The notes below the pieces were generated by a model. The model made no database searches. It was given only the letters and a program-made list of their open reading frames with translations, and had not been told where the DNA came from. From positions 1 to 45,167 of the forward strand of contig JAAYBX010000025.1 of NCBI GenBank assembly GCA_012729955.1: DNA of 45,167 nucleotides, given 5' to 3'. The position numbers and the translations under genes were made by a program. Source of the DNA: Clostridiaceae bacterium. Lineage in GTDB: Bacteria; Bacillota; Clostridia; DUPQ01. The first letter of the stretch is position 1, and the number at the start of each line of letters is the position of its first letter. Shown in pieces: positions 32,449-38,627 of the stretch.

Positions 32449-33783
32449 ATGAATAAAACGGAAATCAATGAGAACAAAAGAAAAAAAACTTTCAAAAGAA
32501 AAGGAAGTTTCACAAAAAACAGAAAATATGAGATAAAGCCAGAACGAATTTTTAGTGAACCAACTAAATTTAAAAAAAGACCCGTAAACCCTGATGAGGA
32601 TAAGCAGAAAACAAATTATTCAGGCACTAAATTTGATGATTTAAATCTATCAGAAGGAATTATAAAAGCATTAAACAAGAAAGAGTATATATACTCATCA
32701 ACTGTGCAGTCAGATGTTATACCTCCACTTATGGAGTATAAAGATGTTATTGCTAAAGCACCTACTGGGACAGGAAAGACATTTGCATTCGGAATACCTC
32801 TTCTTGAGCAGCTTGATTATGAAAACAAAGAAATACAGGCACTTATACTTGCTCCGACAAGGGAACTGGTTATTCAGATTTGCGAGGAATTAAAGGATCT
32901 CTCTGAATTCATGCCCAAAGTAAAGATAGAAGCTATATATGGAGGGAAACCCATAGAAGGTCAGATAAAGGCACTAAAAAGGAATCCGCAGATTATTGTT
33001 GCGACTCCAGGAAGATTAAAAGACCATATTGACCGTAAGACTCTTGATATATCCAAAGTCAGAACAGCAGTACTGGATGAAGCAGACCGTATGTTGGATA
33101 TGGGATTTATCGAAGAAGTAACAAAAATCCTTAACATGATGCCTAATAGAAAGAATTTAGCTCTTCTTTCAGCCACCATGTCTATGGGTGTCATGGATAT
33201 TTCATGGCTTTATCAAAGAGATGCAGTTGAAGTTACTGTAGAAGAGAATAACGAGAATAAACCGGATATTGATCAGATTTGCGTTATGGTCCAGAATATG
33301 CACTCCAAGATGAAAGCTGTAGAAGCAATACTGGACAACAATGATTTCTATAAAGTACTCGTATTCTGTAATACAATAAATATGGTGAGGATGCTTACTG
33401 ATAACCTTCGCGAAAAAGGCTACTCAGCAAACTGTATTTACGGGGGTAAATCGCAAACTGGCAGGGAAAAGACGATTAGAGCGTTTAAGGATGAAAAACT
33501 CAATATTCTGATAGCAACGGATGTTGCAGCTAGGGGTTTGGATATTACAGATGTAGATGCTGTAATTAATTTTGACCTTCCTGATGATAAAGAGCAGTAT
33601 GTACACCGTATAGGCAGGACCGGAAGAGCCATGAAGAATGGAATTGCAGTTTCGCTTCTTACGCCATTTGATCAGGATAAGCTGAATGATATTAAGAAAT
33701 ACTGTAAGGCAGATATAAAAGAGATAAAAAATGATGGTATACTGAATCTATCAACTGAAGGAGATTTGGAAAATGATAATTGA
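32449..33783 (+). CDS. DEAD-box RNA helicase
   Basis: A 444-residue ATP-dependent RNA helicase. A basic N-terminal tail (1-55, Lys/Arg-rich) is followed by the core: Q motif around Gln87, APTGTGKT at 104-111, APTRELV, ATPGR, DEAD in LDEADRMLDMGF, LLSATM, then the second RecA domain with CNTINMVRMLTDNLREKGY, ATDVAARGLDI and HRIGRTGRAM. The C-terminus is short, with no DbpA/RNA-binding domain, which suggests a RhlE-like ribosome assembly or RNA decay helper. It starts 1 base after hisE and overlaps the amidohydrolase gene by 11 bases. Confidence 0.92.
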   Translation: MNKTEINENKRKKTFKRKGSFTKNRKYEIKPERIFSEPTKFKKRPVNPDEDKQKTNYSGTKFDDLNLSEGIIKALNKKEYIYSSTVQSDVIPPLMEYKDVIAKAPTGTGKTFAFGIPLLEQLDYENKEIQALILAPTRELVIQICEELKDLSEFMPKVKIEAIYGGKPIEGQIKALKRNPQIIVATPGRLKDHIDRKTLDISKVRTAVLDEADRMLDMGFIEEVTKILNMMPNRKNLALLSATMSMGVMDISWLYQRDAVEVTVEENNENKPDIDQICVMVQNMHSKMKAVEAILDNNDFYKVLVFCNTINMVRMLTDNLREKGYSANCIYGGKSQTGREKTIRAFKDEKLNILIATDVAARGLDITDVDAVINFDLPDDKEQYVHRIGRTGRAMKNGIAVSLLTPFDQDKLNDIKKYCKADIKEIKNDGILNLSTEGDLENDN

Positions 33784-34633
33784 TGCTCATAATCATGCAG
33801 ACTGGCACAAGACAGATTTAGACGGATTCATAAAAAATATGGATGAGAATAATATTGATGTCACATGGCTTCTTTCATGGGAGTGCCCAAGACATGAATA
33901 TGAGAACTACAACGGAGGATTAGCAACTTATCTTAAAAAAGGACCTATACCATTCGAGGCAGGGCTGGAATACAAGAAAGCATATCCGGACAGATTCGTA
34001 CTGGGATATTGTCCTGATCCTAGAGATCCGGATGCGATAAATAACTTAAAAGCTGCTACTTTCATACACAAAGTACGAGTCTGCGGGGAACTGAAGGTCA
34101 GGATGATGTATGACGATTTTGATGCTATCAGATTATACCGTACAGCAGGAGAGCTTAATCTTCCGGTAACAATGCATTTTGATTATGAATTTAACAAGCC
34201 ATGGACAAACGCCTGGCCAAATTTCTGGTATGGAGGCGGTATTGATGTGCTGGAAAGAGTACTTCAGAAATGTCCTGAAACAGTGTTTTTAGGACATGCT
34301 CCGGGATTTTGGGCACATATATCAGATGATGACCAGTATGATAAAATGTCTTATCCGAAAGGGCCTGTAGTCAGGGGCGGCATGATTTCCAAACTTCTGG
34401 ATAAATATGATAACCTTTATTGTGATATGTCTGCAGGAAGCGGCTGGAATGCCTTCAGCAGAGATCTTGAGCATGCTTACTGGTTTATTAATAACTATCA
34501 GGACAGGATACTTTATGCCAGGGACTATTTTGATTCAAGACATGGCGAGCTAATCGAATCCCTTAACTTAAGCCAAACGGTGAAGAATAAGCTGTACTTT
34601 GAAAATGCGTTAAAGCTTGTTCCTTTAAAATGA
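33773..34633 (+). CDS. amidohydrolase family protein (amidohydrolase 2/ACMSD-like)
   Basis: A 286-residue TIM-barrel hydrolase of the amidohydrolase-2 group. Metal and catalytic residues: His6 and His8 in IDAHNHAD, a His in VTMHFDYEF, another in FLGHAPGFW, and Asp in RILYARDYFDS. Short length and the GHAPGFW block resemble decarboxylase-like members. Substrate unknown. ATG overlaps the helicase end and its stop overlaps the pcp start (ATGA), so the three are coupled. Confidence 0.82.
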   Translation: MIIDAHNHADWHKTDLDGFIKNMDENNIDVTWLLSWECPRHEYENYNGGLATYLKKGPIPFEAGLEYKKAYPDRFVLGYCPDPRDPDAINNLKAATFIHKVRVCGELKVRMMYDDFDAIRLYRTAGELNLPVTMHFDYEFNKPWTNAWPNFWYGGGIDVLERVLQKCPETVFLGHAPGFWAHISDDDQYDKMSYPKGPVVRGGMISKLLDKYDNLYCDMSAGSGWNAFSRDLEHAYWFINNYQDRILYARDYFDSRHGELIESLNLSQTVKNKLYFENALKLVPLK

Positions 34634-35181
34634 AGATTCTAGTTTCGGGATTCAGTCCTTTTGCAGGATTTAGTGAGAATATTACACAGAAGCTTGTAAT
34701 GGGGCTTCCAGACATGAGCAATGGGAATGAGATATATAAGGTCATACTGGATGTCACATACCAGACAGCTTTTGAACTTCTGGATAAAAGAATTGAAGAG
34801 CTGAAGCCTGATATAGTTATTGCAACTGGCATGGCTGCATCAAGAAAATTTATATCAATAGAAAAAATCGCTTTGAATATAAATAATTCGAACACAGCAG
34901 ATAATGCAGGTATATTTAAAAAAGACAGTATTATAATACCTAGAGCTGAAATTGCATTAACTGCGACGCTTGAGTATCCTAAGTCTGTTTATTTAATGGA
35001 TATAGTTGATACTTCCTATTCAGCAGGCACCTATATATGTAATGATATTTTTTACAGGCTTCTGGAAAAAAGCACAAAACGGGTATATCCATATATCTCT
35101 TTCATTCATTTTCCATCGGAAACAAATATATCATATGAAAAACAGCTCAGTACATTTATTGATATCCTGAGCTGTCTGTAG
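34630..35181 (+). CDS. pcp: pyroglutamyl-peptidase I-like cysteine peptidase (short form)
   Basis: Removes N-terminal pyroglutamate from peptides. The catalytic triad is present as Glu78 in ISIEKIALN, Cys137 in SAGTYICNDIFY and His160 in SFIHFPSE; the N-terminal SGFSPFAGFSEN corresponds to the substrate loop GFxPFGG of the family. At 183 residues it is about 30 shorter than typical Pcp (near 215), mostly by a reduced middle section, so activity or tetramer form might differ. Its 3' end contains an inverted repeat that works as the terminator of the convergent motor operon. Start codon overlaps the upstream stop. Confidence 0.85.
   Translation: MKILVSGFSPFAGFSENITQKLVMGLPDMSNGNEIYKVILDVTYQTAFELLDKRIEELKPDIVIATGMAASRKFISIEKIALNINNSNTADNAGIFKKDSIIIPRAEIALTATLEYPKSVYLMDIVDTSYSAGTYICNDIFYRLLEKSTKRVYPYISFIHFPSETNISYEKQLSTFIDILSCL
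35137..35175 (-). terminator. intrinsic terminator of the minus-strand motor operon, inside pcp
   Basis: ACAGCTCAG (35142-35150) and CTGAGCTGT (35167-35175) form a perfect 9-bp stem with a 16-base loop. Read on the minus strand, the stem is followed by TTTTT (35137-35141 plus the last stem base), as expected of a terminator for the operon that ends at 35195. On the plus strand no T run follows, so it is one-directional. It lies in the coding end of pcp. Confidence 0.65.
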
Positions 35182-35194
35182 TAAATAAATAAGT

Positions 35195-36097
35195 TTAAAT
35201 GCCGAAAAGATCAAGTGCTTTCGTTTCATTAGTCACGTTATAAATATTGAGATTGTTTTTAGCATACCTGAAAACTCTGCCTATGGCAGGATCCATCCAT
35301 CCTTTGGCAAAAAGGCGCTTTGCAAAATTAACTGCAAGATCATCGATATCATTATTCTCAACACATAAATCTATATAATTCCACATCACATCATCAGAAA
35401 GCTCAACACCGTTCATTCTCTGTACTTCGATCTTCTCTCTGGCTGAAACAAGATTATTGCCAGATAGGTTTGAAAACAGAAGAAGATTGATGTATGAATG
35501 GTCTAAATATCTTGGTATCCTTTTAAACAGGCTTGCTATGGTTATGTCATCCATCAGGTCTTTATCAGTAATTGACAATTTCTCTAAAAGTTTCCACCGG
35601 AATTCATCATCAATAAACTCATTATGCAGAAAATCTTTCATCATCTGCTCTGTGTCATGAGGTCTTCTCCCTAATACAGCATACCAGTAACATATCAGTA
35701 TGATAGCTAGAATATTATCTTTATCAGAAAGGTAAGCTTCATAAACAGTTTTCATACGATTTGCCATCAGTATAGCTGTAAAATAACCACGAGCGTTTTT
35801 CTTAAGATAACTTGTTTCCTTCATGAGAAGAGAAGTCATTATCTCAATAAACATCCCTGTGTTTAATGGATTATCAGTAAAATACTCTTTATTCTTTTCA
35901 TATGTCTTTAATGCTATTGTATATCTTGTAAGACAGGAGTAAGCCGTTAAAATTCCAAGCACGGATTTCTGAGGCTCGATACCATGATTAATAAGGTACA
36001 AAAAACCTTTAATGGCATCTTCATAGTCTCCTTCCTTAAGGCTCATCATAGAATTCGAATAATATAGCTTAAGATCTTTAAAATCTGTTTTTGCCAT
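35195..36097 (-). CDS. helical-repeat (TPR-like) protein, third gene of the motor operon
   Basis: A 300-residue soluble protein with no signal peptide or membrane segment. It appears all-alpha; the N-terminus (LYYSNSMMSLKEGDYEDAIKG, split by Met) and later KTYEKNKEYFTDNPLNT resemble tetratricopeptide pairs. I recognise no named domain. The ATG has an AGGAGA site and lies 9 bases after the MotB-like stop. Its position in one transcript with the channel pair suggests it is a cytosolic partner of the motor, perhaps docking on the long tail of the MotA-like subunit; that is inference. Confidence 0.6.
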   Translation of the reverse strand: MAKTDFKDLKLYYSNSMMSLKEGDYEDAIKGFLYLINHGIEPQKSVLGILTAYSCLTRYTIALKTYEKNKEYFTDNPLNTGMFIEIMTSLLMKETSYLKKNARGYFTAILMANRMKTVYEAYLSDKDNILAIILICYWYAVLGRRPHDTEQMMKDFLHNEFIDDEFRWKLLEKLSITDKDLMDDITIASLFKRIPRYLDHSYINLLLFSNLSGNNLVSAREKIEVQRMNGVELSDDVMWNYIDLCVENNDIDDLAVNFAKRLFAKGWMDPAIGRVFRYAKNNLNIYNVTNETKALDLFGI

Positions 36098-36106
36098 TAA
36101 TTTCTC

Positions 36107-37144
36107 CTAACTTGCATCATCAAGTGAGTCTAAATACTCCTGAATTATCTGTCCCACATTCTCTTCACGGACAACGATGGAAAATTCGATTCTTCTGTTT
36201 TTAGCACGCAATGTTTCTGTGTAATCATTTTGCACTAAAGGTCTTGACTCTGAATACCCGACTGCACCGAAATAATTCGCATAGTTTGTTTCAAGTCTTC
36301 TATTGCTATCAAATAAATACAATAGTACAGCATTAGCTCTGTCTGTAGATAAAAGCTGGTTTTTTAAATATGTGCCATCAGTACTAGCATGTCCTTCAAC
36401 CATTATAGACTCAATATACTTACCGGAATCTTTTAAAATTTCTTCAAATGCAGTAGCTAATTTATCTAGTAAAGTGTAAGCTGAAGGAGCTATTTCCGAG
36501 CTGTCCACTTGGAAAAGAAGGCTGGCATTTATCTGTAAATTACCTTCGTCACCAATAGTAACATATCCCTCTCCTAATGCTTCATCTATGGATTTTTTGA
36601 CCTTTTCAAATATCTCTACCTGCATTACAGCGACTTTCTGTAGCTGTTCTCTCATTGATTCGAGTTCAATCGTATTCAAAGCTATGAGAGCTAAAAGTTC
36701 TTGTTTCTGAGCTTCCAATGCAGCCTGTTGTTCAGCAAGGATCAGAATGAGGTTTTCGAGGTTTGCTGCTTCTTCCTCAGATAGTTCCAGTGCGGCCTGT
36801 TTAGCAGCTAACTCATTTTCCAGAAGGCTTAAGGATATTTCTTTTGCAGCAAGCTCTTCTTCAAGCATGATAAGAATAGTCTGTTTTGTCTCCAGATCCA
36901 ACTGTGTTTCCTGTAGAGCAAGTTCCTTTGCTGCCAGATCGTTCCTTGTTGCTTCCAGCTGAGCTCCTGTGGCAATATTAGTTGCTTCCTGTTCGTCTAA
37001 ATTTATTGATATGATTATGTTCTTAATAAACACTATCAGAACAAGGAATAGCATAATAAGCACCATAGTGGACATAACATCCGCAAATGACGGCCAGTAG
37101 TTCTCAGCTTCAGTTTTCTTTAAATAGCTAACTCTTTGTTTCAA
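36107..37144 (-). CDS. MotB/ZorB-like OmpA-domain stator protein with coiled-coil repeat
   Basis: A 345-residue protein: short cytoplasmic start, plug and single membrane helix (about 21-43) with Asp22 in WPSFADVMSTM, the position of the proton-carrying Asp of MotB; coiled coil (about 50-190); OmpA-like peptidoglycan-binding domain (about 205-330) with VEGHASTDGTYL, STDRANAVLLYL and GYSESRPL, which hold the diaminopimelate-binding Asp and Arg. Residues 70-125 are four tandem 14-residue repeats that start LAAKELAL, LETKQTIL, LAAKEISL and LAAKQAAL. It starts with TTG behind AGAGGTGAT. It follows the MotA-like gene by 22 bases. True MotB is unlikely: no flagellar gene is near, and the long coiled coil is foreign to MotB. 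Confidence 0.8.
   Translation of the reverse strand: MKQRVSYLKKTEAENYWPSFADVMSTMVLIMLFLVLIVFIKNIIISINLDEQEATNIATGAQLEATRNDLAAKELALQETQLDLETKQTILIMLEEELAAKEISLSLLENELAAKQAALELSEEEAANLENLILILAEQQAALEAQKQELLALIALNTIELESMREQLQKVAVMQVEIFEKVKKSIDEALGEGYVTIGDEGNLQINASLLFQVDSSEIAPSAYTLLDKLATAFEEILKDSGKYIESIMVEGHASTDGTYLKNQLLSTDRANAVLLYLFDSNRRLETNYANYFGAVGYSESRPLVQNDYTETLRAKNRRIEFSIVVREENVGQIIQEYLDSLDDAS
36770..36937 (-). repeat. four tandem 42-bp coding repeats (14-residue coiled coil) in the MotB-like gene
   Basis: Residues 70-83, 84-97, 98-111 and 112-125 of the MotB-like protein align in 14-residue register, i.e. two heptads per unit, with a Leu or Ala start and Lys at position 4. The DNA copies are diverged but in register. 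The units lie between membrane helix and peptidoglycan-binding domain, so their number sets the reach of the periplasm-like space. Confidence 0.75.
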
Positions 37145-37166
37145 TTAGATCACCTCTTGTCTTATG

Positions 37167-38627
37167 TTAATCATTCTTGATGGCCTTTTCTATGTCATCA
37201 AGCTTCTTTTGGATCTTTCCCGAAACCGACTTGTTGTATACCATGGTCTGCTCCGGCAAAGAAGCAATTGTCTGAGCCAGAATTTTCTGGTTGCTCTCAA
37301 AAGATTCAGACATTTTTGCGACATTAGCCATGGATTTTTCCATTGTAGAAGCGGTCTTCTCAGCGATTAAGTCACTGCTTTCCCTTAGAGCTTCTTCAAA
37401 TGAATTTTTAATTTTATCAGTCAAGGAAGCAACTTCCATAGAGGTAGCTATTATAGCTTTTTCAAATGCATCTTTCATATTATTGAACGATGCGGCATTC
37501 TCCTCGCTGGACTGTTTCATAGTATCTGTCAGCTGCATTAGAGCAGTAACAGTCTGGTCTACCTGGACTGCCAGGGTAGCAAGTTCTTCCATAGTCTCCT
37601 TGTTTGAGACAGCCATCTGTCCTGCAGCATTCTTGACATCATCGGCAAATACCCTGATTGCATCATAGTTTTTCATTATGAGGTTAGCAGAATCAGATAA
37701 TGATTCGCTCATCTTTATAAAGGATACATCCATCTTATCAACATTCTCTTTAAGATTAAGGTTGAAATCCGACATATCTTTCATAGCAACAGCTAATGTG
37801 GATATCGCACTGTCAAATCTTTCTACTGTAGTGTCAAGAGCTTGCGATGAGACTGAGACATCCATGACGACATTCGTAAGTTTGTCAGCAAAGGATTCAA
37901 TTGTCTGTTTGAGAGTATCTTCGATTTTTGTACCGAATTCTACAAAAGTATCCTTAAGTATCCTGTTCATCATCGTATACTCGGTTTCTTTATCTTTTGC
38001 AATAAGCACTGCGATATTATTATCAAGGTATTCTTCTATGTCGATCATTAGTGATCTTTTCTGGTCTTCGCAATCAATTGCGATTAGTGTGAAGTTAAGA
38101 ATAACAGAACCGAAAAGTCCCACAAGGCTGGTTGTGAAGGCAGCGCCCATTCCTTTAGCGGCACCTGCAAGCCTTACAAGTATCTCATTCCAGTCCATAG
38201 AGGAAGATCCAATATCCTGTAGAAGTACATTAACAAGCTCACTGACTGAAATTGTAAGCCCTATGAATGTACCCAAGAGTCCTAATGTGACCATCATTGC
38301 CTGGCTTTTTCTTACGAATGTCTCACCGAAAGAACTAAGTTTCATATGCTCTTCAAAGTTCTTTTCAATGATAGCCTGAGTATTTACATTATTGCTGTTG
38401 ATCTCACCTGCAATTTTGTAATCCTGTACAATCTCATTAAGCATCTCGTTCTTAAATGTTCCTGCACGCCTGTTCTGCCGGTTGTTTATCTGCTTGCTTA
38501 ACTTCAGATACTGAAGTTTGATAAGAAGGTTGATTGCGAATGCGGCTAAGAAAACAACCAGGATGAGTACAATCACTAATTTTCCTGAAACGTCTATCGA
38601 TTTAAACAATGATACTAAGTTATTCAT
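37167..38627 (-). CDS. MotA/TolQ/ExbB (ZorA-like) proton channel protein with long C-terminal tail
   Basis: A 486-residue protein with three membrane helices: 16-37, about 109-136 (TLGLLGTFIGLTISV) and about 157-185 (GMGAAFTTSLVGLFGS), the last two being the conserved MotA/TolQ/ExbB pore helices; the form GLLGTFIGL with GMGAAFTTS is close to ZorA of Zorya. After residue 186 comes a 300-residue helical tail rich in Met, Ser, Glu and Lys, with heptads, like the long ZorA tail in the cytoplasm. The ATG at 38627 has an AAGGAGAT site; an upstream in-frame ATG lacks one. First gene of a three-gene unit with the MotB-like and the TPR-like genes. Ion-driven motor subunit; partner and output unknown. 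Confidence 0.82.
   Translation of the reverse strand: MNNLVSLFKSIDVSGKLVIVLILVVFLAAFAINLLIKLQYLKLSKQINNRQNRRAGTFKNEMLNEIVQDYKIAGEINSNNVNTQAIIEKNFEEHMKLSSFGETFVRKSQAMMVTLGLLGTFIGLTISVSELVNVLLQDIGSSSMDWNEILVRLAGAAKGMGAAFTTSLVGLFGSVILNFTLIAIDCEDQKRSLMIDIEEYLDNNIAVLIAKDKETEYTMMNRILKDTFVEFGTKIEDTLKQTIESFADKLTNVVMDVSVSSQALDTTVERFDSAISTLAVAMKDMSDFNLNLKENVDKMDVSFIKMSESLSDSANLIMKNYDAIRVFADDVKNAAGQMAVSNKETMEELATLAVQVDQTVTALMQLTDTMKQSSEENAASFNNMKDAFEKAIIATSMEVASLTDKIKNSFEEALRESSDLIAEKTASTMEKSMANVAKMSESFESNQKILAQTIASLPEQTMVYNKSVSGKIQKKLDDIEKAIKND

Follow-up and report, generated by a model that had tools for sequence, protein, structure and literature searches.

A clostridial operon joining a predicted non-flagellar, non-Zorya ion motor to a cytosolic tetratricopeptide-repeat protein

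A 45,167-nucleotide stretch of DNA from a Clostridiaceae bacterium (contig JAAYBX010000025.1, positions 1 to 45,167), referred to here as the window, carries at positions 35195-38627 of the - strand a tight operon of three genes, which encode a channel, an OmpA protein, and a helical-repeat protein of the tetratricopeptide repeat (TPR) type. Comparison with related loci revealed two separable modules: a motor, consisting of the channel pore and the OmpA protein, and a second module, consisting of the end of the channel's cytosolic tail and the TPR protein. The best explanation, to which we assign a probability of roughly 60%, is that the operon encodes a chromosomal clostridial ion motor of the 5:2 type, neither flagellar nor Zorya, that combines a motor module with an output module and has a housekeeping role.

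An earlier note on the window, made from its sequence alone, had described a compact three-gene operon with its own terminator and without a nuclease or helicase effector, and each of these features was confirmed. The components of the locus are listed below.

37167..38627, - strand: channel subunit of 486 amino acids, with a pore of three transmembrane (TM) segments in the MotA/TolQ/ZorA fold and a helical cytosolic tail of ~300 amino acids (open reading frame, TM segments, AlphaFold2 (AF2), Foldseek, and ZorA profile matches)
38127..38132, - strand: pore residues T166-S167 in TM3, motif AFxTSL (alignment)
37233..37292, - strand: conserved tail-end block, residues 446-465 (NQKILAQTIASLPEQTMVYN), present in TPR-bearing loci and absent in short-tail loci
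36107..37144, - strand: OmpA/MotB/ZorB-like subunit of 345 amino acids, with TM helix, coiled coil, and OmpA domain (Pfam OmpA, ZorB and PRK09039 models, PDB 8vvn_B)
37079..37081, - strand: D22, the aspartate predicted to carry ions in the OmpA subunit (alignment; position relative to ZorB D24/D21)
35195..36097, - strand: TPR alpha-solenoid protein of 300 amino acids, predicted to be cytosolic (profile against PDB TPRs, Pfam TPR in orthologues, AF2)
35140..35177, - strand: terminator hairpin of the operon (folding energy, U-run)

The genes are separated by only 22 nt (channel and OmpA) and 9 nt (OmpA and TPR), and each is preceded by a Shine-Dalgarno-like sequence. Translation of the channel starts at the ATG at 38627 and that of the OmpA protein at a TTG. 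The terminator hairpin (-17.6 kcal/mol, z -3.63) ends in a U-run and overlaps the 3' end of a convergent gene (34630-35181); it escaped a simple scan owing to its long loop. No ZorC-, ZorD-, ZorE-, ZorF-, or ZorG-like gene adjoins the operon among the neighbors scanned, and no extra conserved gene lies beside it among the relatives compared. A DEAD-box helicase gene at 32449-33783 was considered as a candidate ZorD and rejected: it belongs to another, convergent gene group, and only generic helicase models matched it.

The tail end and the TPR gene behave as one module. Across 78 non-redundant channel loci, both were present in 41 and both absent in 33; three loci were cut by contig ends, and one (L096) was odd in having a weak TPR match only, without a recognizable tail end. 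On a tree of 50 rows, computed with the tail end excluded, the states of tail end and TPR gene were concordant throughout. A constrained tree with all TPR-less loci in a single clade was rejected (approximately unbiased test, p-AU 0.0008), indicating at least two independent joint changes of tail and TPR gene. One joint change lies in family f7, where short-tail, TPR-less loci that retain the motor are nested inside a TPR-bearing clade. Because tail end and TPR gene are inherited jointly, we infer that their products form a single output unit.

The third protein, which the earlier note had counted as a TPR-like member of the system, has a TPR fold by profile comparison and by AF2, and its gene is conserved beside the motor pair. 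Its profile reaches 4e-32 against PDB TPRs, and its orthologues exceed the cut-off of Pfam TPR models; the window sequence alone is sub-threshold for every Pfam model. Conserved positions of the protein include R167-W168, W239, and G266-W267. The AF2 model is all helical, with a predicted local distance difference test (pLDDT) score of 90, and neither a signal peptide nor a TM segment is apparent by hydropathy. Foldseek searches with this model returned only generic pentatricopeptide repeat/TPR solenoids (E about 1e-3, TM-score <0.42), giving no functional hint.

Both subunits of the motor module carry the features expected of an ion-driven pair. Three hydrophobic segments of the channel (residues 4-43, 108-136, and 159-187) lead into a tail that is helical over residues ~186-485 in the AF2 model (pLDDT about 70-85 in the pore and mostly <60 in the tail); the model contains no beta-strands (moderate confidence), and its closest PDB folds in Foldseek are ExbB, TolQ, and ZorA. 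The earlier description of a MotA/ZorA-like channel with a long tail is thus borne out. Conservation within the protein is highest in the part of the tail next to the pore. Pore residue T166 is Thr in 68 of the 68 aligned channels having an OmpA partner and Ala in both three-TM channels without one. The second protein, likewise recognized earlier as MotB/ZorB-like with an OmpA domain, matches Pfam OmpA at 1.9e-12; its N-terminal TM helix carries WPSFADVMST and is followed by a coiled coil and, at the end, the OmpA domain. Searched against the PDB, its family profile matched ZorB (8vvn_B) best, across the TM and OmpA parts alike. D22 is Asp in all 69 aligned OmpA subunits, at a position that corresponds to ZorB D24/D21 (PMC11890865).

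The two modules also come apart in the opposite direction. In the Acetivibrio family, tail and TPR gene are kept in all 14 genomes, and the OmpA gene is missing at the locus in six. Elsewhere in these six genomes, the OmpA profile matched only OmpA domains at 34-63 bits. Domains of the same kinds are present in their OmpA-bearing relatives, and they probably belong to MotB of flagella and to other OmpA proteins. The related genomes G212, G302, and G091 and, separately, G308 encode a channel without TM2-TM3, that is, one TM segment plus tail. G309 and G310 keep three TM segments, and in both T166 is replaced by Ala. Between these two genomes, the ratio of nonsynonymous to synonymous polymorphism (pN/pS) is 0.355 in the pore, compared with 0.146-0.197 in OmpA-bearing pairs, as for a relaxed pore, and 0.175 in the tail, compared with 0.107-0.177, as for a tail still constrained. 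On the TPR tree, OmpA must have changed about three times separately, as starred branches require in each case. In G308, a short degraded OmpA relic (L183, 5074-5240) lies between the genes for the pore-less channel and the TPR protein; it scores 30.0 bits, whereas none of 100 shuffles exceeded 21.6, indicating that the direction there is loss. Since the tail-TPR arm is kept in motor-less lineages, it would appear to have a function of its own. In G212, G091, and G302 (L134, L135, and L182), a segment of ~90 residues is repeated internally in the pore-less channel and has made its tail longer; the TPR gene is retained there.

These losses bear on several other readings of the locus. Tail and TPR protein could form a membrane-tethered cytosolic scaffold for holding or positioning some cytosolic complex, in which case the ion channel would be minor, dispensable, or regulatory. 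Such a scaffold would account for a tail-TPR unit that in about three lineages has outlasted pore and OmpA, for a channel cut down in two lineages to one TM segment and tail, a pure tether, and for the high conservation of the pore-proximal tail. However, the motor residues are invariant in all OmpA-bearing relatives, every short-tail locus included, indicating that ion-driven work is under selection there, and we consider the scaffold unlikely. Less probable still is a gated sensor or signaling channel, in which OmpA would sense the wall and tail and TPR protein would read out its state without continuous rotation. A wall-binding OmpA domain outside, an adaptor-type TPR protein inside, and no motility or export target nearby would suit it, but retention of the tail after loss of OmpA and pore is contrary to a pure wall sensor. 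We give equally little credence to the TPR protein as a mere assembly factor or chaperone of the long tail, outside the output path: TPR proteins are often chaperones, and TPR presence tracks the tail end exactly, as expected of an assembly factor, but the TPR gene is also kept with motor-less tails, so that a chaperoned tail would still have a job.

In the ion-motor reading that we favor, five channel subunits would ring two OmpA subunits anchored to peptidoglycan, and ions passing D22 of the OmpA protein and T166 in TM3 of the channel would turn the channel ring. The channel C-termini would together make the long cytosolic helical tail, and the TPR protein may bind the tail end and relay motion to, or dock, a cytosolic partner. 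The role would lie in envelope or cell structure, not in defense. The 5:2-type assembly and ion-driven rotation are proposed by analogy, the stoichiometry following solved 5:2 motors (PMC11890865). Zorya activity requires the ZorA tail (PMC11890865), a precedent for a tail acting as transmitter of force or signal. Tentatively, and with a probability well below that of the motor itself, tail and TPR protein may constitute a distinct clostridial cytoplasmic machine that can be driven by a wall-anchored ion motor yet also works undriven; the motor would then be an optional part, shed by members of the Acetivibrio family on several occasions.

Several points weigh against the ion-motor reading. 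AF2 confidence is low for the channel tail, and the joint tail/TPR changes number only two, which is insufficient for a sign test. The motor-less lineages show that the role of tail and TPR protein there needs no ion flow. The TPR frame is broken in G309, either by sequencing error or by early decay. The OmpA motif reads EGHAS in the window's genus and EGHTD in most relatives, and wall binding here is predicted.

The operon is vertically inherited, core, and syntenic within families. The channel was found in 11 of 11 genomes of the window's family, with the TPR gene adjoining (contig ends split the TPR gene in G001 and the channel in G008). Within the class, 43 of 292 genomes had channel matches, only part of them long-tailed, and a TPR search of a phylum-wide sample at E<=1e-12 returned the window's own genome only, indicating that only some clostridial families have the long-tail form. 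A plasmid collection yielded OmpA-domain look-alikes and Zorya only and no such operon. The tree of pore and OmpA protein agrees with the genera, and within a family the operon keeps its local gene order, amid housekeeping genes. The neighboring genes themselves (aldolase, GH3-like, dUTPase, and rpsO-pnp) change from family to family and were discounted as pointers to function. FlhA and Spo0A are absent from the window genome, whose assembly is 96% complete (the FlhA control was positive in four genomes), which makes a flagellar or sporulation role unlikely in this organism.

This distribution also bears on phage defense. The earlier note had raised a defense variant with the TPR protein as effector. 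Such a variant would be a Zorya-type system with this protein as sensor or effector in place of ZorC/D, ZorE, or ZorF/G. The closest named profiles include ZorA and ZorB, and the tail is long, as in ZorA. Nevertheless, all curated ZorA/ZorB cut-offs are missed, no effector is present, PRK09039-type pairs (described below) are closer, tail and TPR protein persist without the motor, and within families the locus is core, with conserved synteny, rather than patchy. Zorya-type channels are marked by a beta-sheet element in their cytoplasmic portion (PMC12505986), and the predicted channel here contains no such strands. The defense variant is thus unsupported, and we regard it as improbable. Because the locus is core and part of it persists after motor loss, it does not look like defense, and housekeeping in envelope or cell structure is more likely. 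The envelope motor that the note had offered as another possibility survives in a broader form: work on envelope or cell structure, or inward action of a motor on the cytosol, would fit better than defense.

Several related loci were recorded. Outside Bacillota, a contig assigned to Myxococcales bacterium FL481 (L097) carries a single, short relative of the clostridial motor pair, without a TPR gene. Short-tail pairs lie directly upstream of a dnaG-like gene, a housekeeping locus, in G059 (L042) and G023 (L037), the former also downstream of an EF-G-like gene. In Caldalkalibacillus mannanilyticus (L101, 6848-11023), a related channel (574 amino acids) and OmpA protein (230 amino acids) lie beside an M20-type peptidase gene, and no TPR gene was found at this locus. 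A more distant motor pair in G254 (L144, 1425-13372; channel of 555 and OmpA protein of 275 amino acids) has as its neighbors a tubulin-like protein (sub-threshold match to Tubulin_2) and two proteins of >1,100 amino acids without a Pfam match; it is possibly a different motor system. In G019 (L035, 3768-6886), a 508-amino-acid channel-like protein and a 524-amino-acid protein with a related TM motif adjoin an apparent polysaccharide gene cluster.

OmpA-anchored ion motors are known for flagella and Zorya. The operon family described here offers a natural dissection, with a motor without output arm, a motor with output arm, and an output arm without motor. It bears on the role of non-flagellar motors in single-membrane bacteria and on the origin of Zorya, whose effectors may have become attached to a housekeeping motor. 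Acetivibrio species are among its members, so the role of tail and TPR protein may be testable by gene deletion.

Placement among known ion motors was assessed with hhalign, comparing a family-wide profile of the pore with one reference sequence for each known motor. The pore gave 97% with ZorA1, 94% with ZorA2, 11% with TolQ, 8% with E. coli MotA, and 3.5% with ExbB; the B subunit gave 98% with ZorB2, 97% with Pal, 90% with MotB, 0.2% with TolR, and 0.4% with ExbD. Together with the PDB match to ZorB, these values agree with the ZorAB-like pair that the earlier note had recognized, and the channel values of 3-11% place it outside the TolQR, ExbBD, and MotAB branches. Both PADLOC and NCBIfam gave Zor matches, those of NCBIfam far under the curated cut-offs: the window's B subunit scored 45.6 bits against ZorB2 (cut-off 400), the relative L138 scored 41.3 bits against ZorA_2 (cut-off 100), and the window channel had no ZorA match in NCBIfam. 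The window OmpA subunit scored 65.3 bits against the NCBIfam PRK09039 model (cut-off 305). A PRK09039-type pair from Shinella (L202) reached 98.1% and 58.5 bits for the channel and 99.6% and 99.9 bits for the OmpA protein; another Shinella OmpA match, L195, was rejected as the PRK09039 partner, being a different OmpA lipoprotein. Since the NCBIfam Zor matches fall below cut-off and the Shinella pair scores higher, we place the motor pair, by sequence comparison, in a broad non-flagellar PRK09039/ZorAB-like group and not within Zorya. Our searches found no literature on the window operon or on PRK09039 function, and no precedent for a TPR partner of such a motor.

TolQR and ExbBD share the three-TM fold class by structure, but differ in the low channel values given above and in B subunits that are unrelated outside the TM segment; moreover, the window operon lacks TolA/TonB and its host is single-membrane. 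The Tol-Pal operon resembles it in layout, with a TPR-type protein, CpoB, encoded beside a three-TM motor. CpoB is a TPR protein and is periplasmic, whereas the TPR protein of the window is predicted to be cytosolic. Flagellar MotAB likewise has an OmpA-type B subunit, but its channel is distant, and the window system has a long tail and a TPR protein in a genome without FlhA. ZorAB shares the three-TM channel with a long cytosolic tail, and its B subunit has the TM motif seen here together with a wall-binding domain of the OmpA type (PMC11890865); the window operon differs in its sub-cut-off scores, absence of ZorC/D/E/F/G, lack of a predicted beta domain, TPR partner, and core rather than patchy distribution. 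Short-tail clostridial relatives (L078-L095 and L098; for example, Thermohalobacter, Geosporobacter, and Natronincola) share the channel core and the OmpA protein, but their channels, of about 314-362 amino acids, lack the tail end and the TPR gene is absent. The uncharacterized alphaproteobacterial PRK09039-type pair (NCBIfam NF006543/NF006545 "peptidoglycan-binding protein" and an adjacent MotA-like channel) is as close to the window pair as ZorAB or closer. It shares the WPxF-D--ST helix, coiled coil, and OmpA layout and is likewise chromosomal with both genes adjacent; in L202 it differs in a channel of 356 amino acids without the long tail end and in having no TPR gene seen nearby.

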